Notes: a model not told the origin generated them from the letters alone. 37,172 bases of DNA from a virus (IMGVR_UViG_3300009172_001562:1-37172), one strand, 5' to 3'. Positions 67-36,573 are shown, numbered from the stretch's first letter. Numbers and translations: made by a program.

Positions 67-825
67 TTATACTGACCTATGTTTGTTTATCCAGGGAACT
101 TGTTTTTTATCATTTGGAGCACTTACTACTTCATTAAAAAGCCTTAAAAGATTTTCATCATTGTAATGCTGATCTATATTTCTATCAGCACCGTAGCCAT
201 CTTCTTTTTTTAATTTTTTTCTTAATTCAGGAATATCTTTTTTATTAAAAATTTTTTTAGGATCTATTTTGTTTTTTATTCTAAACTCCATTAGTTCTCC
301 ATATACCTCAGGGGCATTTAACTGATAATCACTAAGTTTATAAGATTTTTTTTCTTGACCACCAAAATATTTTCCAAAAAAGTTAGGTTCGAAATCTTTT
401 ATTGGAATGCTTGTTATCTTTTTTTGAATATTACTATTTACGTCATTTTCGTTAAGAAGCCTATTATTAATTTTTTGCGGGGCATCGGTTGTTCCAATAT
501 CAAAAACGTGACCTAACTCATGATAGTTTGTGTTGTCAGAGTTAGCAAAATATACATCATCGTCTGGGCTATATTGTCCCGCGCCAGTTGGCTTTTCTTC
601 ATATATTTTCCCAAAATCAATTTCAGAAACCCTTTTTGTATTGTCAAGATTGTTGAAGCCTTTTTGTTTTTGACCATTACCTAACTGATCTTCATACATT
701 CCTGTTGCTTCTCTTTGATTGACCCAGTTTTTTATTTTCTCAACCCCCTCTTTAGCAGGGTCAGTTATTGAACGCTGCAATAAAGGAGACTTTGCATTAA
801 ATTTTTTCTTGAAAGGTGATCTCAT
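67..825 (-). CDS. Putative zinc metallopeptidase with N-terminal SPxK motifs
   Basis: 252 aa, the last gene of the minus-strand operon, 6 nt after the endolysin gene. Residues 102-106 read HELGH, the HExxH zinc-peptidase signature. A downstream glutamate in GELME (E177) is a plausible third zinc ligand, as in gluzincin-type enzymes. The N-terminus carries SPFK at 3-6 and SPLL at 13-16, matching the motif that recurs in the 31.4-34.3 kb gene group, so the protein may share their location in the virion. No signal peptide or membrane segment is visible. The C-terminal third is rich in Lys and Asp. The substrate is unknown; peptidoglycan, a scaffold or coat precursor, or host proteins are all possible. 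The motif is clear, but the family assignment is inferred. Confidence 0.75.
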   Translation of the reverse strand: MRSPFKKKFNAKSPLLQRSITDPAKEGVEKIKNWVNQREATGMYEDQLGNGQKQKGFNNLDNTKRVSEIDFGKIYEEKPTGAGQYSPDDDVYFANSDNTNYHELGHVFDIGTTDAPQKINNRLLNENDVNSNIQKKITSIPIKDFEPNFFGKYFGGQEKKSYKLSDYQLNAPEVYGELMEFRIKNKIDPKKIFNKKDIPELRKKLKKEDGYGADRNIDQHYNDENLLRLFNEVVSAPNDKKQVPWINKHRSV

Positions 826-1386: not shown

Positions 1387-1557
1387 TTATTTAGGACATT
1401 TACATTCTTCACATCCACAATCTGGTGTTGCTGGATCTTGATTATATTCAGGTACTGGAGCCCCTGTTCCATCCGGGCTTATGGATATTTCCATACCTTC
1501 AGGCGCAGTTAATCCTACTCTTGCTTCTCTAATCTTTGTTGTTATTGGTATGGACAT
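1387..1557 (-). CDS. Small protein with C-terminal cysteine cluster
   Basis: 56 aa. Its ATG shares one nucleotide with the TAA stop of the giant virion gene (TAATG), the same junction seen at four other places in this window. The C-terminus reads CGCEECKCPK, four cysteines in eight residues, suggesting a bound metal or an iron- or zinc-loaded tip. The middle is Pro/Gly-rich and probably extended. No family is recognised and no function is assigned. The tight coupling and compact fit between two genes support it being real. Confidence 0.65.
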   Translation of the reverse strand: MSIPITTKIREARVGLTAPEGMEISISPDGTGAPVPEYNQDPATPDCGCEECKCPK

Positions 1558-4500: not shown

Positions 4501-7500
4501 GCAGGTCTTAAGTCGTAAGTGTAAACAAAAGACTGATCCACTTTAGATAATAAGTATATTCTTAAATCTTTGTAAGGATTAGCTTTACCAAACACATCCA
4601 CAAAATCTAACGTTTCTCTATTTTCCAACCATTGATCATGGAATTCCATAATCTCATTAACTTTAAAAGCTAACTCTTTATCTGTATTGTTTTCAAACCC
4701 AAGCTCAGCAATTTCGAACATACTAGTTCCATTGTCAGCTAAATGCTCTCCCTTCATATTGCCTTGAGGACCATTCTTAAAGGTTATATATTTTAAACCT
4801 GTTAAAGATCTAAGACCAGCAGTAGCGTTAGTTTGCGCTTGCAATATACTTATAAAAGATTGAGGCGAAATACTTCCGTCTTTAACAAGATTTACCAACG
4901 TTGTGATTATATAATTGCCAAGTATTTTGTTTTGAACATTAGCAGCTTCAATCTCTGGTATTAATTTTCTGTATTCTTCTCTTTTTTTATCCCCAGTCCA
5001 TTCCTTGTTTAAAATTCTACTTACTTTGCCCATAACTCCTGTTTTGGAATTCATAGGTGAAACTTCGTTTAGTCTTAATTCTGGCGGAAGGTTTTTGCTT
5101 TTAGGTTGATTTTCTTTTAGTTCAACCAAAAAATCATAAAAAGGCCCAGTTGCTCCTGGTATAATCTTTCCGGTTTCTTTATCTTTTTTTGTAGCCGCGG
5201 AATCTAATAGTCTATTAAAAAAACCAAGTCCATCAAAACCTATAATATTGGTTACATCTGAACCTAAAACATTAGCCACGACTTTCATATCTTTAGCTAA
5301 AGCTTTTCTGGCACTTATATCACTTTTACTGGTTATTGCTCTTTTAACTAGATCCTTAACACTTTGAGGTATAACTTTTGAGGCTTTTATAGATTGCAAA
5401 AACCTAAGATCTTTCCCGTCAAGCAACAACCCTTGATCAAAAGCGTCTCTAATAGACTTCCCAACACCTTCAAATGCTTTTCCTTTGTATATTTCGTCAT
5501 CAAGCAATATATTTCCATCAATATCTACCACTTCGTCAAAACCTATATCTAAACTTTTTCTTAATAGGTTACTTGCTGATTGCTTAAATAAAGGAGATAC
5601 AGAAGAAAACTTAACTTGCCCTCTTTCTGATTGCCTAGCTATATCTTCCACAAAAGTATCAGCTAAAACAACGCCTAAAGCTGCTTGATTGTTCTCAAAA
5701 GCTTTACTTATCTCGCTATTATCATTTTGTAATTCTTTGTTAAATACCTCTAATGATATTTCTTCGGCTACAGCTTTAGCCATAGACTCTTTCTTACCTC
5801 GTATAGGGGCTCCTGAGGTCATCCTGCCATCAGCATCTATACTTACATCCTGTAGTACTGATCCAACGAAGTCAGCGTCGCTTAAAGCCGTCGCTATATT
5901 AGGCAACCTTCTAACAATATCTCCACCAGCAGTCTTACCAGATTTGTTTGTCGATGTTTTTTCTCTATCTATAGTCTTACCTTGCCAGTCACTTGTGAAA
6001 TTAGGTGTAAATATAAAATCACCATAAGAATCTTTAACTCTTGTGCCGGCGTCGTCTACTTTATACGTACCACCAACAGACTTTTGTATGGCTTGAGGAA
6101 TTGCTCCCATCAACCAAGTAGTAGTCATGTTTTCTAATACAGCTTTCTTATTTTTTAATAACCACTTCTGTAATTTAGCATCGGCTTTCCCACCCATAGC
6201 TTCTTTAAGATCAATATCAGCTTGCTTACCCATTGCTTTCTTTATCTCAGCAATTAAAGGTGAAACCGATTTGTTTATAGAAACTTTAGTATCAAGCTTA
6301 GATTTTAATACTTTTAAAACCTTAGTTAATTTACCGCCAATCTCTTTAATAGTAAATCCTGGCAGAACCCCACTGTCAATTAATTTTCTAAACTTAGGTC
6401 TGTCTTTTTTGACAACGTCATCTTCAGCAATTTTACCTTGAGCTTCTTTAGTATCTAAGTCAGTAGTTTTCTTAGCAGCTTCGCTTTCCTTAAACAAAGC
6501 TTTCTTAGCATCTAATTTACCGAAATTAGTGTTAGCGAATATAAATTCACCAAAAGTAATAGGTTGTTTGTTACCTGCTTTCTTTCTTTCAGCCGCTGGA
6601 TCATAGTTAATTAATCTTTCCTGTATGCTAGCTATAGTCTTTTCAGCAATTTCTTTACTAGAAGACTTAGATTTTATATAGTTACTAATTACACCGTTTG
6701 GTTGTGTAGCGCTATAAATAGGATTAAAAACTTTTCTATTAAAATATTGGTCTTGAGTAGTAACCTCCGGAGGTACTAACGCATTTATAGTCTCTAATGT
6801 TGTTTGGGATGATGCTATCTTGGCTTCAGAGCTATCTGTAGTACTTACACCTTCTACAGATTCTAAAGCCTCTACGAGCTTAGATTTTTTAGCAGCCTGT
6901 ATATCTTCTGTCGAAAGTTCTCCTTTGCTTATTTTATTAGCAACACCTACAACAAAGTTAAATATGTCAGTTTCGCCTCTAAAATCAAAATCAAACTCTG
7001 ATCCGAATTGTTGCTGAGTCATAACCCCGAATAATCCAGCAATACTTTTTGCTTTTCTAACGCTTGTTATTTTACCTCCAGCAACATATTCTAAAACTTT
7101 TGAAATTACTTCAGAAGGATCTAATTCCCCATCAACATATACTGAGTCATTCAATAATTCAGCATAAACTTTAGGGTCCGTTGACTTTAAAGTTTTTAAT
7201 AACTGATTTGAAATAGACTGGAAAGCCCCTTCATTCTTTTGATTTGAAAAGATTGACCAAAATGCTTGGTGGCCTACTTCATGGGTTCTAGTGTATTTTC
7301 TTTGATTAGCTACTTGATTTTCAACAACAGCTAAAGTAACACCTTTTGGGTTTTTAGCAGTCTTCTGCACGGCTACTCCGTCATTACCATTAGCAAGCCC
7401 TTCGTTAATTTTAGCTTTTTGCTCAGGTGTTAAATCTTCTCTAGAGTCTACATATGTTGTAGCTTCTGCTACGGTTTCGAAAGACTTAAAGTTTTTACCG

Positions 7501-10241: not shown

Positions 10242-11459
10242 TTAATTTGATTTCCAGTTAAAGCCTTGCGCTCTTAAGTTTAAGTAATCTGCTACTTGTT
10301 GTTTAGAAAAATTCTGCATGATTTGGTTGCCTATCTCATCGTACACTTTATAAACTCGTTGCTTTTGACCATCTAGCTCTGACATAGCTGAACGCGTAGT
10401 GCCTATTCCCTGTATCTTTGTAAGGTTTTCCACATTGTCAATCAAAGCCGTCTTTTCTTTTACGGTTTTTAATTTTAAACGCGCAGCTCCAGTAAGTTCA
10501 GCTGGGGTGTTTTGTTTTATTTCATATTGCTTTTTACCTTCTGCAAAAACACCTTTTCTAGCATTTACTAATCTTTTAACAACTTCTGTTCTAGCGTCTT
10601 CTAAACTTAAAACGTTATCAGTAACTCTTATAGCTATGTCAGCGACATTAAGTTCACTCTCGAAATCATATAGTATTGAATTTAAAGCATCTTCATTTTG
10701 TAAATCGTTAGTCAACTTAGCTTCGTAAGACTTAAGCATTTCTGGATTTATTTCACCTCCTTGTGTTCCTTTATTGTATATACTTTCATTATCTTTCAAT
10801 ATACCAAGGGCTAGTTTGCTATCTTTAAGAAATGGTTGTTTCATTTTATTGTAAGAAACTTCTTGACCATCAAGATCAAATCCTATATTACCGCCAGATA
10901 ATATTTTAAAAGGAGCATTGACACCTATGTCCGCCACACCATCACCATCCTCATCTGCAAAGCCATATATTCTAGCCGCATTAGAATTAGCATCTCCATT
11001 CCCGTTTGAGTACATGCCATCTAATTGATTCTCAGCGTATTCTACTTTGCCTTTTTTGTAAGCTCCTAATTGGCTTGCCATATTCTTGAAGCTGTTATTA
11101 ACTCCTTGCATTATGTCAACATATTCCATGTACTCAGGGCTTGTAGTGTCATCAAACTTAGCTGCTTCTTTAGCTGCGTTAGCATACTCTGATCTTTGTG
11201 ACATTAAAAAGTTGCGCATAGTCTTTGTTTCCTCAGGGCTAAAACTAGTAAAATCCATATCTGTTTTAAGGTTACCCATATAACTGTTAACCTTACTTTG
11301 AATTGCTTTGTTCTTAGCTATTCTACTATCTACCTGTGGAGTAGGGGCACCACCGCTAGCAGAAGAACTTGTCGCAAGTCCCTGAGCAACAGCTTTACCT
11401 ACGTCTAAAAATTTCCTACCTGTTTCTTTAGCTCCTTGTATTAATGCGTTATTTGCCAT
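10242..11459 (-). CDS. Putative internal virion/structural protein with a calcium-type loop
   Basis: 405 aa and not a family I can name. It is mostly helical and hydrophilic, with a low-complexity Ser/Ala/Gly stretch at about 29-40. Residues 169-177 read DEDGDGVAD, the spacing of a DxDxDGxxD calcium-binding loop. It lies 9 nt upstream of the giant virion gene and 11 nt downstream of a Gly/Ala/Gln-rich protein, an arrangement like the internal core protein cassettes of podoviruses. It may be a structural partner of the giant protein, for example in the inner core or as an ejected protein. Its status as a real virion gene is well supported by size, frame and context; its function is inference. 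Confidence 0.7.
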   Translation of the reverse strand: MANNALIQGAKETGRKFLDVGKAVAQGLATSSSASGGAPTPQVDSRIAKNKAIQSKVNSYMGNLKTDMDFTSFSPEETKTMRNFLMSQRSEYANAAKEAAKFDDTTSPEYMEYVDIMQGVNNSFKNMASQLGAYKKGKVEYAENQLDGMYSNGNGDANSNAARIYGFADEDGDGVADIGVNAPFKILSGGNIGFDLDGQEVSYNKMKQPFLKDSKLALGILKDNESIYNKGTQGGEINPEMLKSYEAKLTNDLQNEDALNSILYDFESELNVADIAIRVTDNVLSLEDARTEVVKRLVNARKGVFAEGKKQYEIKQNTPAELTGAARLKLKTVKEKTALIDNVENLTKIQGIGTTRSAMSELDGQKQRVYKVYDEIGNQIMQNFSKQQVADYLNLRAQGFNWKSN

Positions 11460-12478: not shown

Positions 12479-13375
12479 CTAAGTACAAGGGCCAGAAGAC
12501 ACCACCACTCCATTTAAAACGCTAAAAGCAGTATTCCCTGTTGTTGCATACCATTGAACAGTGGATGTTGGGTTTAAAGGGGTAGTTCCATTCGCATCCG
12601 TAAAAACAAAGTTTCCTACAACAGGAACCGTGTTGCTAGCTTGACCAGGAAAAGTCAAATTTGCACTTGCAGTGTTCGCGTTTCGCGTGAAGTGTACAAT
12701 TTGGGTTAGATTGCTACTACACGCGCTTGTGCCTTGTGCTACTGAAGCTTGAACGGATGGTAATTCCGCGGGGCAAGTAACGTAGACTCCCCAACCGGTG
12801 GTTGCACATGGGCCTAAGGCTTGTATAGAGCAGATTCTAGGTGATGCGCTAGTTGGTTTAGGTATAACTAAAGCGCTCCAAATGGTGGCACCAATGTCAC
12901 TACCCATATAATCATTAGCATCAATTGTTATACTTCGATTTTCAACGTTACCATTCGTATCGGTAACCCGCACCCAAGCACTGTTTGCAATCCCCTTAAA
13001 ATAAGGGTATGAAATTGATGCTCCAAATTTGGGGGTCAAGCAAGAAACTTGATTTGCAGCTCCTATTACGGTAAAGCCTGAGCTTGCGGTTGGTGTATTA
13101 GTGGTCGAAAACTTCCCACTCGCAGAATTCGATAGAGTGGTATAGTAAGCTCCGTCATAAAAAACCCTAATTCCATCTGGGATTGACGAAGGGTTGAAAT
13201 ATACCATTATCGCGCCTGTGTCAGTGGCTTCGCCTCCTGTATCAAAATCTAATTCATAATACCCATCATTTCCAGTTGGAATGGTTGTTGAGACACCACA
13301 TTCTTCTGTTTCGCAGGCTGCGCAAGGCGCTTCACTGAGTAAATTTGTACTTGTTAATTCTCTATAGTTTGGCAT
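12479..13375 (-). CDS. Putative tail fibre/receptor-binding protein sharing an N-terminal CxxC module with the next gene upstream
   Basis: 298 aa. The first 21 residues (MPNYRELTSTNLLSEAPCAAC) closely match those of the adjacent 90-aa protein, suggesting a shared anchor. The rest is Thr/Ser/Asn/Gly-rich and beta-type, with segments such as GAIMVYFNPSSIPDGIRVFY near 54-73, as in adhesin or carbohydrate-binding folds. Several cysteines are spread along the chain. Hand counts of 60-base stretches give about 40-53% G+C, clearly above flanking genes (about 25-35%), which suggests recent acquisition or diversification, as expected of a host-range determinant. It follows the nozzle and other tail genes. 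The exact role is inferred. Confidence 0.65.
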   Translation of the reverse strand: MPNYRELTSTNLLSEAPCAACETEECGVSTTIPTGNDGYYELDFDTGGEATDTGAIMVYFNPSSIPDGIRVFYDGAYYTTLSNSASGKFSTTNTPTASSGFTVIGAANQVSCLTPKFGASISYPYFKGIANSAWVRVTDTNGNVENRSITIDANDYMGSDIGATIWSALVIPKPTSASPRICSIQALGPCATTGWGVYVTCPAELPSVQASVAQGTSACSSNLTQIVHFTRNANTASANLTFPGQASNTVPVVGNFVFTDANGTTPLNPTSTVQWYATTGNTAFSVLNGVVVSSGPCT

Positions 13376-13385
13376 AATTAATTAT

Positions 13386-13658
13386 TTATGGTTGTGTGGT
13401 ACATGATATTCCTGCATCATCGCTATAAAATCCAACCGCAGCAGGGGTTTGTAAAGCGTTTGTATCGTATAAAAGCCCCGTGACAGCAGCTAATGTTGTT
13501 ATCCCTGTTCCTGCAGCAAAAACTGTTTTTTGGATTGAGGTTCCGCAGCATAAATCATCTGCTGTTGCGGCGTAGCAGAGTATTAATTGTGAAAAGCATG
13601 AAGCACACGTTGCTTGAGCTAACAAGTTGCCTGATGTTTGTTGTCTGTAATTTGGCAT
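13386..13658 (-). CDS. Small tail-associated protein with MPNYR-CxxC anchor and CC-GFYSDD module
   Basis: 90 aa. Residues 1-21 share the MPNYR..TS.NLL..A.CA.C pattern of the 298-aa protein encoded next. Residues 25-90 repeat a module found in the 585-aa protein: LCYA, DLCCGTS, TVF.AG, VTGLLY and GFYSDD in order. A shorter version ends the 1511-aa nozzle protein. The gene therefore looks like a mosaic of two local modules, possibly produced by duplication within the tail region. It is probably a tail-tip or fibre accessory part. No known family is recognised. Confidence 0.65.
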   Translation of the reverse strand: MPNYRQQTSGNLLAQATCASCFSQLILCYAATADDLCCGTSIQKTVFAAGTGITTLAAVTGLLYDTNALQTPAAVGFYSDDAGISCTTQP

Positions 13659-13675
13659 AATTATTTATTTATTTA

Positions 13676-15433
13676 TTATTGATCACACTCACTACAAGTG
13701 TTTAATACAGTAAGTCCAGCAATATCAACAGAGCCTAGCGTACCATCGTCATTTGTCCATTGTTCTTCTGTCTGTGTCAAGTCACCGTACAAAGCAAAAC
13801 AGCCAAGTGCGACAGGAGGAGATGCGTCGGTATAAAGTGATACGGTAGGTACATTAGGTGGATCGTACAGGATTGTATCAGTTCTCGCAACTCTGGTTTC
13901 AGAACCATTTCCGTAGCAACTTCTAAGTAGATAGTAATAGTAAGTAGGTACCGGTATTGTGCACGTTATACTAACGTCATCACTGTAGAAACCATCTTGC
14001 GCTTCTACGTCTAAATCACTTGTTGTATATAAAAGACCAGTTACACTAGCTAAATTAGCAACATTTCCTGCTACAAATACCGTACGAGATTCAGAAGTAC
14101 CGCAACATAAATCTGCTTCAGTTCCTGCATAGCATAACGTTAACTCTGTATATGATTGAACTACGATTATATTAGTTAAATCTAATACCGTTTCCATATT
14201 AGTGCCTCCGTAAGCGTCCATATTACCGCCAACAGCAATAGTACCACCAGTAGCGGGGTCTTGTAAGCTAATTGCGGCTATAGGATAAGCAGCTGTTCCT
14301 CCGTTAAGAACAGGATTAAGATTACTCCAATCGTCAATTGTTGGTTGCCTAATTAAAATTAAGTTTGAACTTACCATTGGTGTTATACTCCATCCAAAAT
14401 TTATAACCTCTGCGGCATCTCCTACAAGGGGAGACTGAAATGGCAAATAAGATTTTACAACGCTACTTTGAGTTGCAATCCCAGCAGGGAATAAAACGCT
14501 GAAAGTTACTTCTGTATTAACTCTTTGTTGTATTGTAAAAGGATTGGGCTGCGTAAATGGGTTAACTAAATCCCCAGACAATAATATTGAATAAGTAGTG
14601 TTAGTTGTTACGGCTGGGAATACTATTAGGAATGAATATGAACCATTTACTCCCATTGTTATATTTGTTACTAGATCAACACCGTCCATAGCTATTGTAA
14701 ACACAGATCCTGAGCTACCAAATACCGTCATAGTTCTAGTTTCTCCTCCAACTCCAATCAAGCTAGTGTTTATTGAATACGCAGAAATTCCTACCGTGGG
14801 ATTATATATTTCAGAAGCATTAGCTTCAACTATTATGCTATCTCCGGTGACTGAATAATTTGGAAATGTATAGTTTACAGCAAAATTTACTTGTATAAGA
14901 TTGCCTGCTGAGTCGTTAGTAAGTGTTGGAACAATAGAGTAATCAGCTAAGGTACCTATAGCTAAAGAAGCTGTAGGTAGCACTGGGAAGTAGTAGCCAT
15001 TATCAGCCTTTACCACTAGGTTTGCTATTTCTGATGTAGAAAAAATTAAACCATTACCACTATAAGGTGCTGTTGATGTAGGAGGCGTTGGAGGTGAGGT
15101 AAAAGTAGTGTTGTAAGTAACTATCCCGGCTACGGATACCCCAATTAAAGATGCATAGCCTGTTATACACAAAGCTATTAATACATCATTATTAGGCATT
15201 TCACTAGGTTCTATATATAATATTACGCACTCTATGTTAAATCCTGACTGCGTAAAAGTAACGGATTGAACAAAAGGAGGTAACGGGTTTTTAGGTAAAA
15301 AATTAGTAGCATTTATTTCATACCCCGCATTAGGAGTTATAATCAACGTTACAGAGGGGTGAGCCTGCGTCCAGTCCACTCCTACAGCTTCATTAAAACT
15401 TACTACATTTACTGTAAAATTGCTAAATGCCAT
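13676..15433 (-). CDS. Putative tail fibre/spike protein, beta-rich, with C-terminal Cys module
   Basis: 585 aa. Most of the chain is Thr/Ser/Asn/Ile/Val-rich beta sequence with few charges, typical of fibre or adhesin repeats. From residue 434 it carries the CYAG..ADLCCGTS...GFYSDD module seen in the neighbouring 90-aa protein. This is followed by a Tyr-rich stretch (PTYYYYLLRSCYGNG) and a C-terminus ending LNTCSECDQ, with a CxxC pair. It begins 15 nt after the nozzle gene, where fibre genes are often placed. Its likely role is host recognition or fibre attachment. The function is inferred from composition and order, with no recognised family. Confidence 0.65.
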   Translation of the reverse strand: MAFSNFTVNVVSFNEAVGVDWTQAHPSVTLIITPNAGYEINATNFLPKNPLPPFVQSVTFTQSGFNIECVILYIEPSEMPNNDVLIALCITGYASLIGVSVAGIVTYNTTFTSPPTPPTSTAPYSGNGLIFSTSEIANLVVKADNGYYFPVLPTASLAIGTLADYSIVPTLTNDSAGNLIQVNFAVNYTFPNYSVTGDSIIVEANASEIYNPTVGISAYSINTSLIGVGGETRTMTVFGSSGSVFTIAMDGVDLVTNITMGVNGSYSFLIVFPAVTTNTTYSILLSGDLVNPFTQPNPFTIQQRVNTEVTFSVLFPAGIATQSSVVKSYLPFQSPLVGDAAEVINFGWSITPMVSSNLILIRQPTIDDWSNLNPVLNGGTAAYPIAAISLQDPATGGTIAVGGNMDAYGGTNMETVLDLTNIIVVQSYTELTLCYAGTEADLCCGTSESRTVFVAGNVANLASVTGLLYTTSDLDVEAQDGFYSDDVSITCTIPVPTYYYYLLRSCYGNGSETRVARTDTILYDPPNVPTVSLYTDASPPVALGCFALYGDLTQTEEQWTNDDGTLGSVDIAGLTVLNTCSECDQ

Positions 15434-27754: not shown

Positions 27755-29965
27755 TTATTTTATTATCTCGGATAAATTGCCTTCTTGCTTGTATTTTGCA
27801 AATTTAACTTTCATTGTTCTTTTTTGTATTGGAGCATTCGGTCTGTACAAATCTTTATTGCACGCCATCACTGCTAAACCTGAGCTTATTGCTGCATCAA
27901 ATTTTGTTCTATTATTTATATCAAACTTAGACCAATCATTTAGCGTTTCATTAAAATACATTGTGCCGTAATTTCCATCCGACTTTAAACCTACGTAACT
28001 ATCAATATACATTTCTATAGCTGACGCATGCGCTTGCTTTATATCTTCACTTGAATTCGGTATTCCACCTATTTCTTTTTCTGTTACTGATAACTTATTC
28101 CAAAGTTTATCTGGACGATTCATTGAATACCCACGATAACCTCTTCTTTTAAAATAGTACAAAAGTCTAGGCTTATTATTTTCACATAATAAAGGCATTC
28201 CGTAAAATACACAAGCCATTAGCACATCTTCAAAAAATATTTCAGCTGTTTGAGGTCTTGCTACATATTCCAAAAAGAAAGTACTCGGTGGAGCATCTTC
28301 CATACTAAACTTAGTTAAACCGTGTAAAGCTCCTTTGGATCCTCTACCGTCAGTTGTTCCGGATATATCATAACTATCACAACCAAAAGCACCCATGTGT
28401 TCATTACCTGGATGTCTAACTCCGTTTTTTATTACTTGACGATTTTGAATATTGTAAGAAGGAGTCCATGTTATTAAAAACCTACCTTGGGGATTTGGGC
28501 TAAACACTACTCTAGAGTCTTTTATCCCATTTTCCCATTGAAAACTTCCTCTTGTTACAACATTGCTATTAGCTAAATCTTCGTTGTAATCTATTTGTTC
28601 ATATATTTTTGCTAAGTTAAAGATACTGTTTTTAGTCTCATCTCTAAAAGCGTGTTCCTCTGTACGCGGGAATTGTCTGTAATATTCATTTAAAGCGTCC
28701 TGGTCGCCTTTTAATCCATCAGCTTCATTATTCCAATGCTCTATGACCCCAACTTCAATAGGGTCTCCGTGTGGGCCTTCACAATCTTCAGGTGGGGTAT
28801 TGAATACAGGCATCCCATAAGCATCAATGAATCCTTCGTAATTCCATTCCATAGGAATGAACAAAGAATATAATCCTGAGCGAGTCTGTCCATTGGCGTT
28901 TCTTTTTGTAACATCTGATGTTCCATATAATTTCTTAAAGTTTTCACCTCCTTTGTCAAGCGCATTTGAGGTAGACCCCATCATACACTTACCAATAACT
29001 CTTGCCCCTAATCTTAAGGTTGTTTTCGTAACCCTCCAGTTGTTAAGGATATTGTTCGGCCTTTCCCATTTCCCTGATTCGTCGTGAACGAGTAGTTTAA
29101 GTTTCTCTCCATCGTACGCATTGTCACCGGTGTTTTTCCAGTCAATCGTGGTGTCAAGACCTGATATGATTTCTTTAGCTTTATTATTGTCGAGTTTTCT
29201 CCTGGTGAGCTTCGAGGCGGGTACACGATAGGCAAGTTCTGTCTTTGGTCTATCCATTCCGTCTTGTACTGGTTTAAAGAAAAACGGGTAGTTGACTGAT
29301 ATCGGTACAACTTTATCAGTGAACATTTTCTTTGCATCGGAACCAGATTTGGACAAAATCCCGAATCGTGCATCGCTTGATATGGTTGCCATATTAACTG
29401 CCTCCCCAGACGCCATGAATGAAAATCCTGAACGTCTATTCTTGAGATAGCACATGCCATAACTCCTTTTGTCTGCTTTGCAAGCTTCCCAGAATATATA
29501 GAATAATCTATTTGATTCTCGAAATTCTGGCTTCCCAACATCAATCTTGGACCACTGCAAGTACATAAAATGAGTACCAGTAATGTAAGTATCCACATTC
29601 TTATTATTGAACCAGTGACCGTTTTCTCTTTTATTAAATTGCTCATCTATATATATCCCCCATTTGATTTTAAATTCTTCTGGATAATCCCTCCAGTCAA
29701 ATATACTAGTTATAGACTTTAGTTCCCTAGGATATGCCTCAGGCGCCCATCTGTCTGTTTTTTTGTCTATTTTAGGAGGGGCTTTTGGTAAAGCAATCCT
29801 AAGATTTTGTATTTCATATATTTCCCCAATTTGCCCAGTCTTACTTATAACAACAACATCATGCTCTTTGTTGTATCCATAATCCCACTTCTTTCCTTTA
29901 TTTAATCTAGAAATAGTAGTTAGTTTTATAGGTGTTACAACCTTATATAAGTTTTGAGTATACAT
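27755..29965 (-). CDS. terL: Terminase large subunit (TerL)
   Basis: 736 aa, longer than most TerL proteins (about 450-600 aa). The ATPase motifs are visible: a terminase-type Walker A KNRRSGFS at 175-182 (Lys/Arg before Gly, not the GKT form), Walker B LLVHDE at 291-296 and motif C GSTSN from 330. A C-terminal nuclease-like region begins at GCDSYD (D530). TerL pumps DNA into the procapsid and cuts concatemers. The start codon overlaps the stop of the small upstream gene (TAATG). The extra length lies mainly before the Walker A motif, where about 170 residues precede it. Other minus-frame open stretches inside this gene are shadows. Confidence 0.93.
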   Translation of the reverse strand: MYTQNLYKVVTPIKLTTISRLNKGKKWDYGYNKEHDVVVISKTGQIGEIYEIQNLRIALPKAPPKIDKKTDRWAPEAYPRELKSITSIFDWRDYPEEFKIKWGIYIDEQFNKRENGHWFNNKNVDTYITGTHFMYLQWSKIDVGKPEFRESNRLFYIFWEACKADKRSYGMCYLKNRRSGFSFMASGEAVNMATISSDARFGILSKSGSDAKKMFTDKVVPISVNYPFFFKPVQDGMDRPKTELAYRVPASKLTRRKLDNNKAKEIISGLDTTIDWKNTGDNAYDGEKLKLLVHDESGKWERPNNILNNWRVTKTTLRLGARVIGKCMMGSTSNALDKGGENFKKLYGTSDVTKRNANGQTRSGLYSLFIPMEWNYEGFIDAYGMPVFNTPPEDCEGPHGDPIEVGVIEHWNNEADGLKGDQDALNEYYRQFPRTEEHAFRDETKNSIFNLAKIYEQIDYNEDLANSNVVTRGSFQWENGIKDSRVVFSPNPQGRFLITWTPSYNIQNRQVIKNGVRHPGNEHMGAFGCDSYDISGTTDGRGSKGALHGLTKFSMEDAPPSTFFLEYVARPQTAEIFFEDVLMACVFYGMPLLCENNKPRLLYYFKRRGYRGYSMNRPDKLWNKLSVTEKEIGGIPNSSEDIKQAHASAIEMYIDSYVGLKSDGNYGTMYFNETLNDWSKFDINNRTKFDAAISSGLAVMACNKDLYRPNAPIQKRTMKVKFAKYKQEGNLSEIIK

Positions 29966-30240
29966 TACTTTGATTTCCTTTCAGCAAAACCTTTAAACTC
30001 GACTGCTTCAATTTCTTTTCTTGGCTTATTTTCTAGTATACGTTCCTCTTCTTCTATACGGTTTAATATTTCAAAGGCGTCGAATATAGCTAGCTTTTTA
30101 GTTGCGGCAGCATTTTTTAATTTATCAGCTGTTAGGTCGTCTTCAGAATCTATTATAGGCTCTTTAGCAACTTTTATCAGCTCTTCAACTGCCACTTGCC
30201 CAGCTTGGATTATATTCTTCTTCGTTTCCTTGATATTCAT
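29965..30240 (-). CDS. Probable small terminase analogue (helical, upstream of TerL)
   Basis: 91 aa, strongly helical and charged (KNIIQAGQVAVEELIKVAKE near 8-27, then DKLKNAAATKKLAIFDAFEI near 39-58), ending in a basic tail. It is immediately upstream of and coupled (TAATG) to terL, the usual place of the small terminase. It lacks a recognisable helix-turn-helix and is shorter than most TerS proteins, so the role is inferred from place and helical character. Its first 56 nt overlap the end of the preceding gene out of frame, and no alternative internal ATG leaves the helical N-terminus intact. Confidence 0.55.
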   Translation of the reverse strand: MNIKETKKNIIQAGQVAVEELIKVAKEPIIDSEDDLTADKLKNAAATKKLAIFDAFEILNRIEEEERILENKPRKEIEAVEFKGFAERKSK

Positions 30241-30775
30241 ATTTGATTGTGATTGAATTAACGGGTACTCGGTATAACCTCTGCCCTTCTATTACAAATT
30301 CGTATTCCGAACTCGGTTTAAAACCTACTAATGATTCTTCTTTAATTTCATCATTACCAAATTTTACAATACCTATTAATGGTTTTTCAAAATCTACAGA
30401 AAACATTTTGTCTTCTTTTATAGGTTTAACAAAACAGAATCCTTCCAGAGCTTTCCATTCACCATCTCTTTTAAACGCATATATTTGATCAGCTTGAACA
30501 GTATAAACATCTTCGCTTAAATAATTCTTACTATCTTTTTCCTTGCCTCTTACATCTCTAAATCTTCTAAATACATTATGATGCACAATTACGTCGTCAC
30601 CTTCTTTTAGCTCTTCATTGCCAACTAATGGTAGATTCAATATTGTACCCACTCTATTAGTATAGCTGTGATTTTGTAAATCTGTATTAAGTAATAATGT
30701 TTGTCCCTCTATTTCTTTAGAACCTGTGGTTCTATTCCCTTTAGGTGATACTAAATAATTAAAAACACTCTGCAT
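30185..30775 (-). CDS. Beta-rich protein with a possible GroES-like core, unknown function
   Basis: 196 aa. Residues about 42-68 (VGTILNLPLVGNEELKEGDD then VIVHHN) parallel the core of this phage's own GroES-like protein (GNIISVGDKIDFLKEGDVVR), with the same small-residue turn, hydrophobic strand and LKEGD turn. The remainder is beta-type with aromatic residues, including YTVQADQIYAF. A GroES-like or other beta-barrel fold is a hypothesis; no mobile loop is obvious. The gene overlaps the small terminase analogue by 56 nt and is 1 nt from the gene before it. It may be an assembly chaperone or virion part. Confidence 0.6.
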   Translation of the reverse strand: MQSVFNYLVSPKGNRTTGSKEIEGQTLLLNTDLQNHSYTNRVGTILNLPLVGNEELKEGDDVIVHHNVFRRFRDVRGKEKDSKNYLSEDVYTVQADQIYAFKRDGEWKALEGFCFVKPIKEDKMFSVDFEKPLIGIVKFGNDEIKEESLVGFKPSSEYEFVIEGQRLYRVPVNSITIKYEYQGNEEEYNPSWASGS

Positions 30776-31257: not shown

Positions 31258-31407
31258 CTATTTGGTTTTTGTATATGGAAATGCTTTATTTAGCGCTTCT
31301 TTTCTTTTGTTACATCCGCAATCTCCAGGAAGCTTATCTACTATAGCCTTGATCCCTGTTGCTTTTGTAATTTTTTCTATTGTGTCTCCTAGTCCTTTTG
31401 ATTCCAT
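31258..31407 (-). CDS. Small Cys-motif protein (CGCNKRKEALN)
   Basis: 49 aa, starting MESKGLGDTIEKITKATGIK. A short helical N-terminal part is followed by DCGCNKRKEALNKAFPY, a CxC with basic residues that could bind metal. Its ATG overlaps the stop of the 155-aa gene (TAATG). An in-frame ATG at 31419 would add four residues, but the overlap start matches other junctions here. I associate this CGC..R...LN..FP pattern with small proteins of marine phages and assign no function. Confidence 0.7.
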   Translation of the reverse strand: MESKGLGDTIEKITKATGIKAIVDKLPGDCGCNKRKEALNKAFPYTKTK

Positions 31408-31874
31408 TAGCAGTTCCATTTATCTAAAGCTAACTTTTTTCTAGTTGGCTCCCCGTTAGGTTTTTTCATAGCTCCAGGCATTCCACCCATTCTGGCGCAA
31501 AATGATTTTCTACGCTTAGCATCTTTACTACCTTTTTTAAGTTTAGAAGGCTTTGTTGTAACTGCTGTTTTTAATTTAGATCCAGGATTGTCTCTTTTAT
31601 AAGCGTCAACACCTTTTTGATTTAAACCGCCAGTTTTAGATTTACCTTCTTTACGTGTCCACGCTGCTGTTTTTTTAGCGGGTGACGCTTTATCTACAGC
31701 TTTGCTTACCAAAGAACCGATTACAGCTTTACCAGCCATAGCCAATAGAGGCGCTATTTTTGCAGGTGATTTTGCACAACTTCCTTTTTCCTCCTTCTTT
31801 TTACCAGGTACTGGAGAATACCCTTCCCAGCATCTTTTTAATACTGGGGATTTAGGTTCTTGCTGGTATGCCAT
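31407..31874 (-). CDS. Basic SPxK-motif protein with a conserved C-terminal RRKSFCARMGGM...KWNC domain
   Basis: 155 aa, very basic. The N-terminal part contains SPVLK at 9-13, SPVPGK at 20-25, SPAK at 36-39 and SPAK at 64-67, with a short hydrophobic Ala/Leu/Ile helix between (about 41-60). The C-terminal half has GGLNQKGVDAYKRDNPGSKL and RRKSFCARMGGMPG, ending KLALDKWNC. This pattern resembles a small basic family common in marine phages, possibly that catalogued as DUF6321; I could not verify the number. It lies between the 351-aa SPxK protein and the 49-aa gene, both joined by TAATG. It is probably a virion or DNA-associated protein; function unknown. Confidence 0.75.
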   Translation of the reverse strand: MAYQQEPKSPVLKRCWEGYSPVPGKKKEEKGSCAKSPAKIAPLLAMAGKAVIGSLVSKAVDKASPAKKTAAWTRKEGKSKTGGLNQKGVDAYKRDNPGSKLKTAVTTKPSKLKKGSKDAKRRKSFCARMGGMPGAMKKPNGEPTRKKLALDKWNC

Positions 31875-32929
31875 TATTTAAAGTATTTCATTTTTAAAGG
31901 CGACTTCTTTTTAAAGAAATCTGGTGTTTTCTTTGGTAACACCCCAGATAGTTTTTCAGTATCTGTAGCTTTTGTTTTGGCTATCTCTGCAAAATTTATA
32001 GCCTTTGATGAATTTACCGATCCTTCTTTAATAGCTTTATCTTGTGCAGTTTTTCCTCCTACATCACTTAACTTCATGTCTCTCTCTGCGTCCAGTACAT
32101 CTTTACCACTTTTAGTACTTATGTTTTGCTTAGACTGTCTTTTTACGCTTTCATTCTCACCTGTAGAAACAGCTAAATTGTCTTTCGCTTGTTGCCCTTG
32201 TCTTTTTAATCTTTGATCTCTTTTATTGTATTTTTTACCCGAACCCTCTATAGCATTACCATCTTTGTCTTTTTTTATAGTGGAAGGATCAATAGCTCCT
32301 GATCTACGTAGATTTCTATCAACTTTCCTTTGAGCAGCTTTCTTAGTTCTAGCTGTATGCTTTCCAGCTCTAACAGTGTTACGTCTGTCTAAAGAAGTTT
32401 GAGCATCACCTTTATCTCTAGTTTTGTTTGCCGTAAATTGATTGCTTGTTGTAGTCTCTCCTTTAACTATTTCTTTTTTCTTTGTATCTGGTTTAAATAC
32501 TCCAGTACCTATGGTGTTGTTAGCTTTACCCTCCTTAGTTGGGTTAAGCGTGCCATAAGTTTTCATATTGTAAGCATTCACTTCTTCTTGAGACACCCCT
32601 ACGTCAGCCGCCGTTTTAATTCTGGTTTTTTCTTCTCCAGGAACATTAACTTCTTTTTCAGTATCTGGAGCGGTTTCAGTTTTAAGAACATTAACACCTA
32701 CTTTTGTTGATTCTACAGGTTTATCATCATTGTTCTGCTTAAATGGAGAAGCCTTCATAGAATACCCTCTCATCTTACTTGGTGATGGAATATCTTTAGT
32801 CTGATTGTTTCCGTGAACGCCGGCAGGACCAACGTTTAATAAAGGTTCTTTCACACCTTTCTTTTGATTAAATAAGCCAGTGCTTACTCTTGCCGTGATC
32901 GGCGTGTTTTTACTACCTTTAATTCCCAT
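31874..32929 (-). CDS. Basic low-complexity SPxK-motif protein
   Basis: 351 aa, Lys/Arg/Asn/Thr-rich and probably disordered. Motifs are SPSK at 49-52, SPFK at 61-64 and SPLK at 343-346 within the C-terminal end SPLKMKYFK. It also shares PITAR (10-14) and a GP.G..GNN block (34-42) with the 203-aa protein encoded just before. The middle (about 180-250) is strongly basic, suited to binding DNA. No known domain is seen. A virion-internal or DNA-condensing role is possible but unproven. Confidence 0.7.
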   Translation of the reverse strand: MGIKGSKNTPITARVSTGLFNQKKGVKEPLLNVGPAGVHGNNQTKDIPSPSKMRGYSMKASPFKQNNDDKPVESTKVGVNVLKTETAPDTEKEVNVPGEEKTRIKTAADVGVSQEEVNAYNMKTYGTLNPTKEGKANNTIGTGVFKPDTKKKEIVKGETTTSNQFTANKTRDKGDAQTSLDRRNTVRAGKHTARTKKAAQRKVDRNLRRSGAIDPSTIKKDKDGNAIEGSGKKYNKRDQRLKRQGQQAKDNLAVSTGENESVKRQSKQNISTKSGKDVLDAERDMKLSDVGGKTAQDKAIKEGSVNSSKAINFAEIAKTKATDTEKLSGVLPKKTPDFFKKKSPLKMKYFK

Positions 32930-32948
32930 TGTGATTAGTTATTAGTTT

Positions 32949-33560
32949 TTAAAATTTCAGTGTTGGTGCTTCCATGTCGTCCATCGGATTAGTGGCTCCT
33001 AAATTTGTATCAATTTTTTTAGCTTTAGGTACATCTAATGCTTCTTGCTTTTCCTTTGTTTTTTCTGGAGCTAAGTCAGCGGTTTTACCTTTTGCACTTT
33101 TATCAGGTTGATTAAGAGCGCCTCCTACAATAGATCCAACGTCTACAAATTCCTTGTTAGTATTTGCAGCCCCGTCAACCAATGCTTGGTTCATCTTAAG
33201 TGGTGAGTTTTTAGCTCTTGCTGTAATAGGTAAACAAGTCTTTTTAGCAGGGCTTCCTAAATTACCGCTGTAACCATCCTGAAAATAAGCTTCACCTCCA
33301 TAAAAGTTTTTACTAATTTTAGCAGGAGATCCTATACTATATCCATTGTTGCCTTTAACCCCTAATCCCTGGGGGCCTATCTTTTTAGCTGGAGACGTAT
33401 TTCTTTTATTAAAAGAACTCATAGCTTGTTTCAAAGATACATCTTCTCCGCCAACACCTTGACGGTCGCCAGCTGCAGATTTGTCTTGAAATCCAGCTTG
33501 ATTCCTGCTTTTAGTTTCTTTATTTAACCCACTAGCTTGACCTCTAAATGTTATTGCCAT
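32949..33560 (-). CDS. Low-complexity SPxK-motif protein with four copies
   Basis: 203 aa with SPAK at 56-59, 78-81 and 103-106, and SPLK at 119-122 (SPLKMN). PITAR at 111-115 and GPQGLGVKGNN at 62-72 match segments of the 351-aa neighbour. The first 120 residues are basic and Gly/Asn-rich; the last 80 are more acidic, Lys/Asp/Glu-mixed and lack the motif. Serine codons in the motif are of both AGC and TCN types, so the repeat is kept at protein level and is not a recent DNA duplication. No family is recognised. Confidence 0.7.
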   Translation of the reverse strand: MAITFRGQASGLNKETKSRNQAGFQDKSAAGDRQGVGGEDVSLKQAMSSFNKRNTSPAKKIGPQGLGVKGNNGYSIGSPAKISKNFYGGEAYFQDGYSGNLGSPAKKTCLPITARAKNSPLKMNQALVDGAANTNKEFVDVGSIVGGALNQPDKSAKGKTADLAPEKTKEKQEALDVPKAKKIDTNLGATNPMDDMEAPTLKF

Positions 33561-33562
33561 AA

Positions 33563-33916
33563 TTATGATTTTTTATATGCTTCGTTTTCCCATTCAAAAT
33601 CAGGATGCCCTTCGTTCATGGTAGCTCTTTTGTAAACTCTTGCTGGTGATCTTGTATCTCTTTTCCAAGTTACAGAATCTTCAGAGTATTGTAATCTCCC
33701 TTGAGCTAGTTGATCTAAGTGAACCTTTTCGTGTTCTACAGCACCCTCAACCTCTTTATCAGAAAGTTTATTGCTTACGAAAATTGTTCCGTCTCTGTTA
33801 GCTTCAGCTTCAACTCCATCCTCTAAATCGTCTTTAACGATCACAGGTGTTCCAAATTGAGAAGTCTTTTCGTGAATACCAAACACATCACTATGAGATT
33901 TAAGCTTGAATGCCAT
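33563..33916 (-). CDS. Small putative zinc metallopeptidase (HEKVH) carrying SPAR
   Basis: 117 aa. Residues 62-66 read HEKVH, the HExxH zinc motif, in the context VEHEKVHLDQ. A C-terminal EWENEAY (108-114) could give the third ligand, as in several compact phage HExxH proteins that end with a Glu before Ala/Tyr. It also has SPAR at 90-93, between the two halves of the putative site, tying it to the SPxK proteins around it. Its start overlaps the previous stop by TAATG. Likely an enzyme acting during assembly or after ejection; substrate unknown. Confidence 0.7.
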   Translation of the reverse strand: MAFKLKSHSDVFGIHEKTSQFGTPVIVKDDLEDGVEAEANRDGTIFVSNKLSDKEVEGAVEHEKVHLDQLAQGRLQYSEDSVTWKRDTRSPARVYKRATMNEGHPDFEWENEAYKKS

Positions 33917-34311
33917 TATACTTTTCTGTCTTGACCGCCTCCTGAAGCGCGCGTTCCCGCTTTACGCATAAACTTACTGGTTTCTTTAGGTTTTACATAA
34001 CCTTCATCACCCGGTTGCTTTGGCTTGGTCACTTTAGTAGAAAGTGCTTTTCTAATTTTAGCTGGTGATGGGGCTGGTTTTGGTGTTTTTTCATCTTTCT
34101 TATTGCTCCCTTTCACTAACTTCTTTTTTTCGTACGGAGGTAAAGCAACGTTTTTTCCATCGGGTCCAAAAACAGAGTTGTCTTTCATTTTCTTCTTCTC
34201 AGAGACAGTCATGTTTTCTGCTGCAACCATTTTTTGTTTTGCTGGTGATGTTACAGATCCCCTACCTGCTCCTAAACTGTTTGGTCCAATTCCTTTTCCG
34301 TTGTTTGCCAT
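33916..34311 (-). CDS. Basic low-complexity SPxK-motif protein
   Basis: 131 aa, Lys/Pro/Gly-rich and probably unstructured. SPAK occurs at 22-25 and 82-85, each in a basic stretch. The first copy follows GIGPNSLGAGRGSV, a Gly/Pro-spaced block related to those in the 203- and 351-aa proteins. No hydrophobic core, membrane segment or catalytic motif is visible. It is the first gene of the SPxK group in transcription order, 15 nt after the winged-helix candidate. Function unknown. Confidence 0.65.
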   Translation of the reverse strand: MANNGKGIGPNSLGAGRGSVTSPAKQKMVAAENMTVSEKKKMKDNSVFGPDGKNVALPPYEKKKLVKGSNKKDEKTPKPAPSPAKIRKALSTKVTKPKQPGDEGYVKPKETSKFMRKAGTRASGGGQDRKV

Positions 34312-34326
34312 TTTATTGTTTTTAGT

Positions 34327-34767
34327 TTATCTTTCTTTATCTTTTATCATATCGTCAATAGCTTTGTTGTAAACCTTATCCGTGTATGTTTTGTTCTTGT
34401 AAAAGGTACTTCTAGCAGACGTTGGTAAATCCTCTTCTCCTAGTAGTATCCTGTAAATTCTGTTTATTAAACTTTTACATTTATAAGAGGTACTATATAT
34501 ATTAGTCTTCATAGTAGTCCTATTCCTTTTTCTCCAAACATCAATCCATCCCTCTCTTCTTAATCTCTCCCATCTTGCTTTATCCCAAGAGTATGTATAA
34601 ACACCGTCTATGAAATCATTACGTGTAAATTGCTTTTTGCAATCCAAATATATTAATAATTCAATGTCAGCGTCTTTAAGGTCATAAGTTTTACAGGCCC
34701 ATTTTCTAACAAGCCTGTAATACTTAAGTAGATTCATTTCTCTTAAATCACTTGAGTCTAGCTTCAT
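34327..34767 (-). CDS. Probable winged-helix DNA-binding protein
   Basis: 146 aa. The region of about 11-85 has the pattern of a MarR-type winged helix: LLKYYRLVRKWACKTYDL, then DADIELLIYL, TRNDFI, and WERLRREGWIDVWR followed by a basic wing (KRNRTT). It is encoded in an ATGA overlap with the GroES-like gene, so the two are translated together. It could regulate late transcription or recognise DNA for packaging as an unconventional small terminase. The C-terminal 50 residues are basic and helical. The fold assignment is tentative. Confidence 0.6.
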   Translation of the reverse strand: MKLDSSDLREMNLLKYYRLVRKWACKTYDLKDADIELLIYLDCKKQFTRNDFIDGVYTYSWDKARWERLRREGWIDVWRKRNRTTMKTNIYSTSYKCKSLINRIYRILLGEEDLPTSARSTFYKNKTYTDKVYNKAIDDMIKDKER

Positions 34768-35021
34768 TCCACTAAAACTACATCCCCTATCGTAATTACA
34801 AAATACAATTTATCATTCCACTCTATCCCGTGTCCTGCGTGTTTATCGTATCTAACAACATCGCCTTCTTTAAGAAAATCTATTTTATCGCCTACGCTAA
34901 TTATGTTACCCTTTAAGTACCTAACGTCGTGGTTTTGGCTTTGTGTTATTTCAAGTCCTCCTACTGTCTTCGGAGCTTCTTTAATTTTGTCGATTATAAT
35001 AAAGTGATTAATTGCTTTCAA
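34764..35021 (-). CDS. groES: Phage co-chaperonin GroES-like
   Basis: 85 aa, against about 95-97 for bacterial GroES. It starts MKAINHFIIIDKI, similar to the first strand of GroES, has a mobile-loop-like segment with GGLEI at 21-25 (bacterial GGIVL), and the core strand and turn GNIISVGDKIDFLKEGDVVR. The roof hairpin region is short. It would cap the GroEL ring encoded just before, whose last 14 nt overlap this gene. Bacterial operons usually run groES then groEL; here the order is reversed. The divergence is large, but partner, length and motif make the call good. Confidence 0.85.
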   Translation of the reverse strand: MKAINHFIIIDKIKEAPKTVGGLEITQSQNHDVRYLKGNIISVGDKIDFLKEGDVVRYDKHAGHGIEWNDKLYFVITIGDVVLVE

Positions 35022-36573
35022 GAGATCTTACGTTTGAGATTATACAATCTGCGGATATAATTGTCTTTACCACACTAACAGCGTTTTTAAGTGCTGATTT
35101 TGTAACCAAAACCGGATCTATAATACCAGCTTTAATCATATTAACTTCTTTACCTGTTTTAACGTCTATACCTCTATTTTTTATAACTTGCTTCTTGATT
35201 TCAACAATACCAGCATTATCTAGTATGGTGTAATAAGGAGATCGTATAGAATCTAATAACAACTTGTATCCGTCATCTTTAGGTTTGATCTTGTTGGAAG
35301 CATTTAATAATGCAATTCCGCCGCCCGCTACTATTCCTTCTATTAAAGCTGCTTTCGTAGCGTGTAGTGCATCATCAACCCTATCTTTTTTTTCTTTCAG
35401 TTCAACCGCTGAATCAGCACCTACTTTAATAACACCAACTTTACCAGTCAGCATAGACAATCTTTTTTCTAATTTTGTTTTTATGTAAGCGTTTGTTTCT
35501 TTGTCGATCTTAACTTTAACCTCTTCGATGCGCTCTGTTAAATCTAAAGTACTATCTTTGATTTGTAAAATAGTGTTTTTAGCGTCTGTAACGGACTTTA
35601 AAACTTCACCTAGTACATTAACATCTAAAAGGTCTAAGTCGTCACCAAGCTCTTCATCTACGACCGTAGCACCTGTTAAGATAGCTAAGTCTTGTAATGT
35701 ATCTGCTTTAGTTGGTCCAAACCCTGGAGGATCCACAATATTGACCTTTATATTACCTTTAACTTTGTTTGCTAATAACGTAGCGAATGGCTGCTGCTCA
35801 AGTGGAGCTACAATTAATAAGCTTCGTTTAGTTTTAACTACATGCTCTAATATGTTTTGTATTCTACGTATATTAGGTATAGGTGAACTAACTATTAAAA
35901 CCAACGGTTCTTCTAGCACAGCAACACCTTTATCTTTGTCTGTTAATAGATGTGTAGATTTTATACCTGATTCAAACTGTGTTCCTTCAACAAACTCAAC
36001 ATATGTTTCATTTGTTTCAGAGTCTTCCATTAAAACAACTCCAGTCTTACCAACTCTTTCGAACGCCTCTCCAATCTTGCTTCCAAGTTCTTCGTCGTTG
36101 TTGCAGCTAATGTAAGCAACTTGTTGTAGCATATCACCCTCAACTTCAATCCGGGTATTATCAAGGTAAACAGTAATTTCTTCAAGACATTTATCAACGC
36201 TTCTTTTAATATCTCTAATTTGTGCTTCACCTTTGTATTCGTTTATGTTCTTTAATAAAGAAGACGCAATAACGGTAGCTGTTGTAGTACCGTCACCTGC
36301 TTCCCTTACTGTATTACTAGCCGCCTCCTTTATAAGGGTTGCACCTATATTTTCGACCGGATCCATTAAGACTACGCTTTCTGCAACGGTTACTCCGTCT
36401 TTTGTTATAACCGGTCGGCCCATGGCGTCTTCGTATATCACGCATTTTCCAGAAGCCCCTAATGTGGACTTTACTGCGCTTGCTAATTTATCGACACCGG
36501 ACATTATTTTGTTTCTACCTTCGTTTCCGAAGCTTAGATCTTTTACGATCTGACTAGGTAAATTGAATTCCAT
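35008..36573 (-). CDS. groEL: Phage chaperonin GroEL (complete, ATPase residues intact)
   Basis: 521 aa against about 548 for E. coli GroEL. Conserved ATPase parts are ITKDGVTVAES (D59), EAGDGTTTATV (D94), RVDDALHATKAA (D401) and the AGGG glycines at 417-419, so the protein should hydrolyse ATP. The apical domain keeps PGFG and LQDLAILTGATV, but the stretch matching the E. coli substrate-binding GYLSPYF reads GIKSTHL, with aromatic residues lost. The Gly-Gly-Met tail is absent; the end is VRSLESN. It probably folds phage proteins, such as the coat or the very large tail and internal proteins, together with the adjacent GroES-like protein. Confidence 0.97.
   Translation of the reverse strand: MEFNLPSQIVKDLSFGNEGRNKIMSGVDKLASAVKSTLGASGKCVIYEDAMGRPVITKDGVTVAESVVLMDPVENIGATLIKEAASNTVREAGDGTTTATVIASSLLKNINEYKGEAQIRDIKRSVDKCLEEITVYLDNTRIEVEGDMLQQVAYISCNNDEELGSKIGEAFERVGKTGVVLMEDSETNETYVEFVEGTQFESGIKSTHLLTDKDKGVAVLEEPLVLIVSSPIPNIRRIQNILEHVVKTKRSLLIVAPLEQQPFATLLANKVKGNIKVNIVDPPGFGPTKADTLQDLAILTGATVVDEELGDDLDLLDVNVLGEVLKSVTDAKNTILQIKDSTLDLTERIEEVKVKIDKETNAYIKTKLEKRLSMLTGKVGVIKVGADSAVELKEKKDRVDDALHATKAALIEGIVAGGGIALLNASNKIKPKDDGYKLLLDSIRSPYYTILDNAGIVEIKKQVIKNRGIDVKTGKEVNMIKAGIIDPVLVTKSALKNAVSVVKTIISADCIISNVRSLESN

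Follow-up and report, generated by a model that had tools for sequence, protein, structure and literature searches.

A repeated SPxK peptide motif in small virion-region proteins of one marine phage clade: a putative virion-loading tag

The window and its six motif-carrying proteins

The window analyzed here (IMGVR_UViG_3300009172_001562:1-37172; the whole stretch of DNA, 37,172 nucleotides) is a 37-kb fragment of an uncultured tailed phage, recorded in IMG/VR as a linear viral contig, with terminase, portal and capsid genes that fall into PHROG head families. Six of its proteins carry one or more copies of a short peptide, SPx[KR] (SPxK for short). These carriers, with the positions of their motifs, are as follows.

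33916-34311, minus strand: 131-aa basic disordered carrier with an N-terminal IGPxxLG...SPAK module, close copies of which occur in relatives; SPAK at residues 22 (34237-34248) and 82 (34057-34068)
33563-33916, minus strand: 117-aa HExxH metallopeptidase-like carrier; SPAR at residue 90 (33638-33649), on a hairpin insertion
32949-33560, minus strand: 203-aa carrier; SPAK at residues 56, 78 and 103 (33384-33395, 33318-33329, 33243-33254) and SPLK at 119 (33195-33206)
33114-33194, minus strand: module MNQALVDGAANTNKEFVDVGSIVGGAL within the 203-aa protein, resembling the N-terminus of a 405-aa protein
31874-32929, minus strand: 351-aa carrier with N-terminal PITAR...EPLLNVGPAGV and a variable Lys-rich middle; SPSK at residue 49 (32774-32785), SPFK at 61 (32738-32749) and C-terminal SPLK at 343 (31892-31903)
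31407-31874, minus strand: 155-aa carrier, in the order CWxGY module, SPAK, hydrophobic Gly/Ala stretch, SPAK, DUF6321 domain; SPAK at residues 36 (31758-31769) and 64 (31674-31685)
67-825, minus strand: 252-aa HExxH carrier with the N-terminal tag MRSPFKKKFNAKSPLLQ; SPFK at residue 3 (808-819) and SPLL at residue 13

The window holds 15 SPx[KR] matches in total, 13 of them in the six carriers, where 0.93 would be expected and the maximum in 5000 within-protein shuffles was 7; the remaining open reading frames contain 2, against 2.7 expected from shuffles. A recount reproduced every motif count and position that an earlier note on this sequence had given for the six carriers. The one outside match named there, SPKK in a 2891-aa protein, is present, but a second, SPIK at residue 858 of a 1511-aa protein, had been overlooked. 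The same note's two HExxH peptidase candidates among the six, the 117-aa and 252-aa proteins, stand as candidates by sequence. Its argument from synonymous serine codons also holds: the motifs use TCA, TCT, TCG and AGC in the window and all six serine codons in relatives, so it is the peptide that is conserved, and a DNA-level repeat as the source of the motif is ruled out by codon use.

In the 117-aa protein, the conserved HExxH lies in helix 53-71 of the predicted model (predicted local distance difference test, pLDDT, 81); matches in the PDB are weak (best E 0.08), viral SprT-like matches reach E 1e-4 to 1e-3, and Pfam matches fall below the cut-off. The DUF6321 domain (PF19846) of the 155-aa protein is recognized at 73 bits against a curated cut-off of 28.5 (E 3e-20); the predicted model is of medium confidence (mean pLDDT 62), with pLDDT below 50 at residues 39-67. 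Residues 39-63 of this protein (window 31674-31769) form the hydrophobic Gly/Ala stretch IAPLLAMAGKAVIGSLVSKAVDKA between the two SPAK motifs; a close homologue, in locus L009, lacks exactly this stretch plus one SPAK, and similar stretches lie between SPAK motifs in unrelated carriers. The stretch in the 155-aa protein may be membrane-active.

No direct relative of the 252-aa protein was found in IMG/VR or in whole contigs. Its tag MRSPFKKKFNAKSPLLQ has a counterpart in the relative G035, MNSPFKQKFSDKSPLAQ (12/17 identical), on a protein whose body shows no convincing similarity to the 252-aa protein and lacks HExxH, and whose gene occupies the equivalent genomic place, downstream of a giant gene; the first nine residues served as the search pattern, and the KSPLxQ beyond them was not part of it. 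A second recurrent motif, PIT[x][RK], which usually lies at the N-terminus and in many cases precedes EPLLNVG, is common to ~10 otherwise distinct proteins, with instances in the window at 31874-32929 and 32949-33560 and in many relatives.

Enrichment and residue specificity in relatives

We retrieved 146 IMG/VR loci using the large terminase (TerL) and the 203-aa protein as queries, clustered their genes into families, and derived expected motif counts by shuffling. SPx[KR] exceeds expectation 25-fold in the 203-aa family, 24-fold in a related 121-aa family, 18-fold in the 117-aa HExxH family, 14-fold in the 351-aa family and 7-fold in the DUF6321 family, and stands at about 0.2- to 3-fold in the terminase, portal, capsid and chaperonin families and at 0- to 3-fold across the non-carrier structural families. 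Together, the seven main carrier families hold 425 motifs vs 27 expected. Composition bias of Lys/Pro/Ser-rich proteins, raised in the earlier note as a possible refutation, is ruled out by the shuffles in both the window and the relatives, where the frequency is ~16-fold above expectation. The motif is carried by at least five families plus many singletons, encoded near virion genes.

The enrichment is confined to a particular form of the motif. Within the seven pooled families, SPAK occurs 165 times vs 2.1 expected, and neither TPx[KR] (21 vs 27) nor SP[KR][KR] (3 vs 5.6) is enriched; in the carrier families [^S]PAK is depleted (6 vs 27), and S[VI]AK, considered as a degenerate form, is not enriched. 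The relatives provide 277 unique motif contexts, and the pooled motif prefers A, F, M or L as its third residue and M, Q, I or K as its fifth. The lack of enrichment of TPx[KR] and SP[KR][KR], together with these residue preferences, therefore defines a specific S-P-[small or hydrophobic]-K motif that is neither a charge effect nor a histone motif. A cyclin-dependent kinase-like S/T-Px[KR] motif is ruled out because Thr and basic third residues are absent.

This specificity bears on whether SPxK segments might be DNA-binding or condensing elements, that is, Lys-rich, proline-kinked tails neutralizing packaged DNA and having no targeting role. SPAK-like repeats are present in histone H1 tails. 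The fully disordered carriers contain 12-21% Lys, and the motif lies in disorder in the 155-aa model (the low-pLDDT residues 39-67). In T4 internal proteins, only lysines contact DNA phosphates (PMC3012670). Like the histone/H1 S/TPKK motif, SPxK forms Ser-Pro-Lys-containing repeats in basic disordered tails, but it lacks the basic third residue and the alternation with Thr that define the former; the minor-groove SPKK-like role proposed earlier thus fails in its specific form on the SP[KR][KR] and TPx[KR] counts above. More generally, a charge-driven element would not need a motif in which neither Thr nor Ala replaces Ser and position 3 favors small or hydrophobic side chains, Phe, Met and Leu among them. 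The predicted model also places the motif on the hairpin of a folded peptidase. A DNA-binding role is, in our judgment, unlikely.

Conservation of motif positions

Two carrier families retain the motif at fixed positions. In the 351-aa family, identity to the window is 92% at motif residues vs 34% elsewhere (43 deduplicated homologues), and in the 203-aa family two of the four motifs are kept (of 28 deduplicated homologues, 27 have motif 78 and all 28 have motif 119), so that the loss of positional conservation considered in the earlier note is not what these two main families display. The position is less fixed in the DUF6321 family (7/18) and the HExxH family (19/37); in the latter, the motif sits on a six-residue insertion in a beta-hairpin (predicted model, pLDDT 81) that is missing from deeper homologues.

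Several proteins share modules such as IGPxxLGxxGNNGYxIGSPAK, as they might if the motif were a functionless by-product of the shuffling or copying of linker modules among fast-evolving disordered proteins. Against such an origin stand the position-specific conservation over a drifting background in two carrier families and the 277 unique contexts, which draw on all six serine codons, and we regard it as the most improbable of the explanations considered here.

Clade limits and gene clusters

Loci were grouped by the identity of their terminase to that of the window.

27755-29965, minus strand: large terminase, the clade marker

Loci with a TerL at least ~83% identical are all SPxK-rich upstream of TerL, typically with 6-20 motifs vs ~1 expected, and loci with a TerL 72-77% identical contain none or few, many of them keeping the 117-aa HExxH gene. 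Most of the loci at or above 83% came from the 203-aa query, a selection bias that inflates the 37/37 occurrence of the 203-aa and 351-aa families; loci found by TerL alone (e.g., L009, L010 and L015) also carry the motif, and of 20 other contigs checked, retrieved by querying with second-cluster or N-terminal motif sequences, 19 belong to the same terminase clade. The SPxK motif marks one phage clade (TerL at least ~83% identical). Marine virus AG-345-E15 was considered as a clade member and rejected, its fetched stretch resembling a T4-type virus without the motif cluster.

Whole contigs contain two SPxK clusters flanking the virion module, one before TerL and one just downstream of the gene for a ~2900-aa protein; the window's sixth carrier (67-825) is at the place of the second cluster. 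One further window protein is an apparent SPAK-less relative of second-cluster SPAK proteins.

1387-1557, minus strand: 56-aa protein, PITTK...EGMEISISPDGTGAPVPE

The SPxK cluster adjoins phage GroEL and GroES genes, and a Ser-specific, Thr-excluding motif suits recognition by a folded partner; SPxK could on these grounds dock proteins inside the cell to a partner of host or phage origin (a chaperonin, takeover target or condensate), the tag marking an interaction network. The chaperonin genes are, however, also present in relatives without SPxK, and the domain swap described below points to capsid-targeting tags, which makes such a cellular partner distinctly unlikely.

Carrier modules and exchange with T4-type tags

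The carriers are built of small, mostly basic modules, namely DUF6321, DUF5872, CYHKAK..FPSAYASG..KCRKKKG, CWxGYxxVPG..GSC and HExxH peptidases, the last bearing a weak structural resemblance to SprT- or IrrE-like proteins. In other marine phages, the same modules are carried on T4-type capsid-targeting sequences. The internal proteins of T4 are diverse and basic, have only the capsid-targeting tag in common, and need only its first ten residues for packaging (PMC3012670, PMC9026906); the N-terminus of T4 IPI-III is MKTYQEFIAEA. DUF6321 proteins elsewhere often begin with a sequence of this type, such as MLTFQEFITEA-TPAW.., MRAHEFIDES-AAW.. or MKSFLEHLTET-AAW.., and a strict T4-type N-terminal pattern is found in 9/73 DUF6321 proteins vs 12/947 neighbors, with a Fisher p of 4e-6 that is indicative, since the pattern was devised after examples had been seen.

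The exchange is most direct in L293 and L009, which encode the same two-module protein (CWxGY-type plus DUF6321; 68% identical over 114 aa). In L293, this reads MKSLKEFINEG-RCWPGY...SCEKVSEES-AAW[DUF6321], with a T4-type tag in front and VSEES between the modules, and in L009, from the window's clade, MAYKQEPKSPVLK-RCWEGY...SCAKSPAKKT-AAW[DUF6321], with MAYKQEPKSPVLK in front and KSPAKKT between the modules. The N-terminal SPVLK of L009 is a relaxed form of the motif (SPxxK). SPxK thus occurs where homologous proteins elsewhere carry a T4-type tag, and across carriers it occupies N-termini, a C-terminus, an exposed hairpin and the stretches that separate small domains.

That SPAK in L009 stands where the T4-type L293 has an E-containing linker would also fit a maturation cleavage site, a counterpart of T4-type E|A or E|G sites at which a phage protease would free the modules inside the capsid, and two of the six window carriers are HExxH peptidase-like. 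The earlier note had suggested these peptidases as the enzymes. Cleavage by them is disfavored because the 117-aa HExxH family is often retained by relatives in which SPxK is not enriched (72-77% TerL identity), because the motif lies in the beta-hairpin of the peptidase itself, and because conserved ends, such as the C-terminus of the 351-aa family, would be stripped by cutting at motifs that nevertheless remain. Known prohead proteases are serine enzymes (PMC7411985), and no prohead protease of the serine type was recognized in the window. We rate a cleavage site as very unlikely.

A further link to the virion comes from a module shared between a carrier and a virion-region protein.

10242-11459, minus strand: 405-aa virion-region protein; its N-terminus (11370-11459) is an FxDVG module also present in the 203-aa carrier

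The 203-aa family sequence SPLKMNTALVQGAALTGKKFVDVG.. and the N-terminus of the 405-aa family, MANNALIQGAALTGRKFLDVG.., are 67% identical over 24 aa (E 3e-7). The position of the 405-aa gene is that of phi38:1 gp100 and similar genes labeled structural, to which sequence similarity is weak.

A possible virion-loading role

We infer that SPxK is a clade-specific tag that loads cargo proteins into the virion, a reading to which we assign a probability of roughly one half (0.52). Of the three roles listed in the earlier note, capsid loading is the best supported, by the L293/L009 swap, by gene position and by the module held in common with a virion-region protein N-terminus. As proposed, S-P-[A/F/L/M/S/G]-K-[M/Q/I/K], occurring one to five times in a protein, would act as a short linear tag by which proteins that are small, mostly basic and unrelated in other respects dock onto some part of the virion during its assembly; the partner may be a virion protein such as a scaffold-like 413-aa protein, the portal or the capsid. 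The tagged carriers would be packaged and would probably enter the host along with the ejected DNA. SPxK would thereby play the part that an N-terminal capsid-targeting sequence plays for the internal proteins of T4.

Several known systems invite comparison. The T4 capsid-targeting sequence (IPI, IPII, IPIII, Alt) is, like SPxK, one short peptide on otherwise unrelated, mostly small and basic proteins and is associated with head genes, and in other marine phages it is such N-termini that DUF6321 and CWxGY cargo carry. SPxK differs from it in its unrelated sequence and in being mainly internal and present in 1-5 copies, the T4 element being a single N-terminal propeptide, MKTYQEFIAEA. The balance tips narrowly toward SPxK working like a capsid-targeting sequence, yet it does not belong to that class, from whose sequence and single-copy N-terminal position it departs. 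The cyanophage T4-GC 119 protein resembles the carriers as a chain of CYxK, CWxGY and DUF6321 modules encoded among head and packaging genes, but lacks SPxK, its linkers often holding [ILVFM]xE[AGS]; the label 'structural protein, T4-GC 119' appears in two T4-type cyanophage records and was not traced to a proteomics table. In phicrAss001, a Bacteroidota phage, gp45 and gp46 are cargo proteins that are stored and ejected (PMC10172136), as proposed for the carriers; unlike these, they are large and bound to portal and tail rings, and no repeated short tag is described there. A search of open-access papers found no leads for SPxK or DUF6321, consistent with the earlier statement that no system of this kind has been described.

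A number of points weigh against a loading tag. The SPxK clade has no cultured member, and the nearest cultured relatives (Flavobacterium phage elemo, Maribacter phage Panino, Cellulophaga phages phi38:1 and phi46:3) lack an SPxK cluster. Only 9/73 DUF6321 proteins fit the strict T4-tag pattern, many being stand-alone, and SPxK is not confined to N-termini as known capsid-targeting sequences are; an internal motif present in several copies would fit binding or condensation as well. No receptor for SPxK was found, late expression of the carriers is read from gene order only, and the 405-aa link to isolate proteins labeled structural is mostly by gene position.

If SPxK is a loading tag, proteins that are packaged in virions and injected could be read off by this label in a marine phage group that is abundant but uncultured, and candidate effectors, small metallopeptidases among them, could be listed from sequence alone. 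A protein-loading tag would then exist outside T4-type phages, and packaging would suggest itself as the role that DUF6321, DUF5872 and similar modules share across marine phages. We put forward more tentatively a non-T4 loading code, in which a repeated, movable SPxK would recruit fast-changing injected effectors through a dedicated scaffold, portal or capsid receptor.

Relatives, likely host and other features of the window

The nearest annotated phages are the spring-water podovirus MW202828 (TerL 62%) and the Flavobacterium elemo phages, Maribacter phage Panino, and Cellulophaga phages phi38:1 and phi46:3. The host of the window phage is likely a marine bacterium of the Bacteroidota, because bacterial genome bins with TerL relatives are mostly Bacteroidota metagenome-assembled genomes (MAGs), some apparently misbinned elsewhere. 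Archaea, Aliivibrio and Pelagibacter appear as labels of MAGs holding terminases of this group (L365, L385, L352, L359 and others), which are probably misbinned phage contigs, and one group terminase lies within a 1.05-Mb Aenigmatarchaeota chromosome record (CP070801). In the 66-kb relative G001 (L156), TerL is spread over three frames at 114-2329, reflecting assembly errors or a broken gene.

Window regions 34764-36573 and 30185-30775 encode GroEL- and GroES-like phage proteins together with a second GroES-like protein, of 196 aa (phrog_13932), before TerL. The giant 2891-aa virion-type protein (1557-10232) has a weak polynucleotide kinase-like match at residues 1955-2139 (phrog_415, E 8e-5), and a region of it resembles phi38:1 gp101 and elemoF gp88, both labeled structural; HExxH is present in its homologues in relatives. 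Finally, tail-fiber-region proteins at 12479-15433 have common modules: two of them start with MPNYRxxTSxNLLxxAxCAxC, and a 90-aa and a 585-aa protein share a LTLCYAGTEADLCCGTS..FYSDD-like domain.

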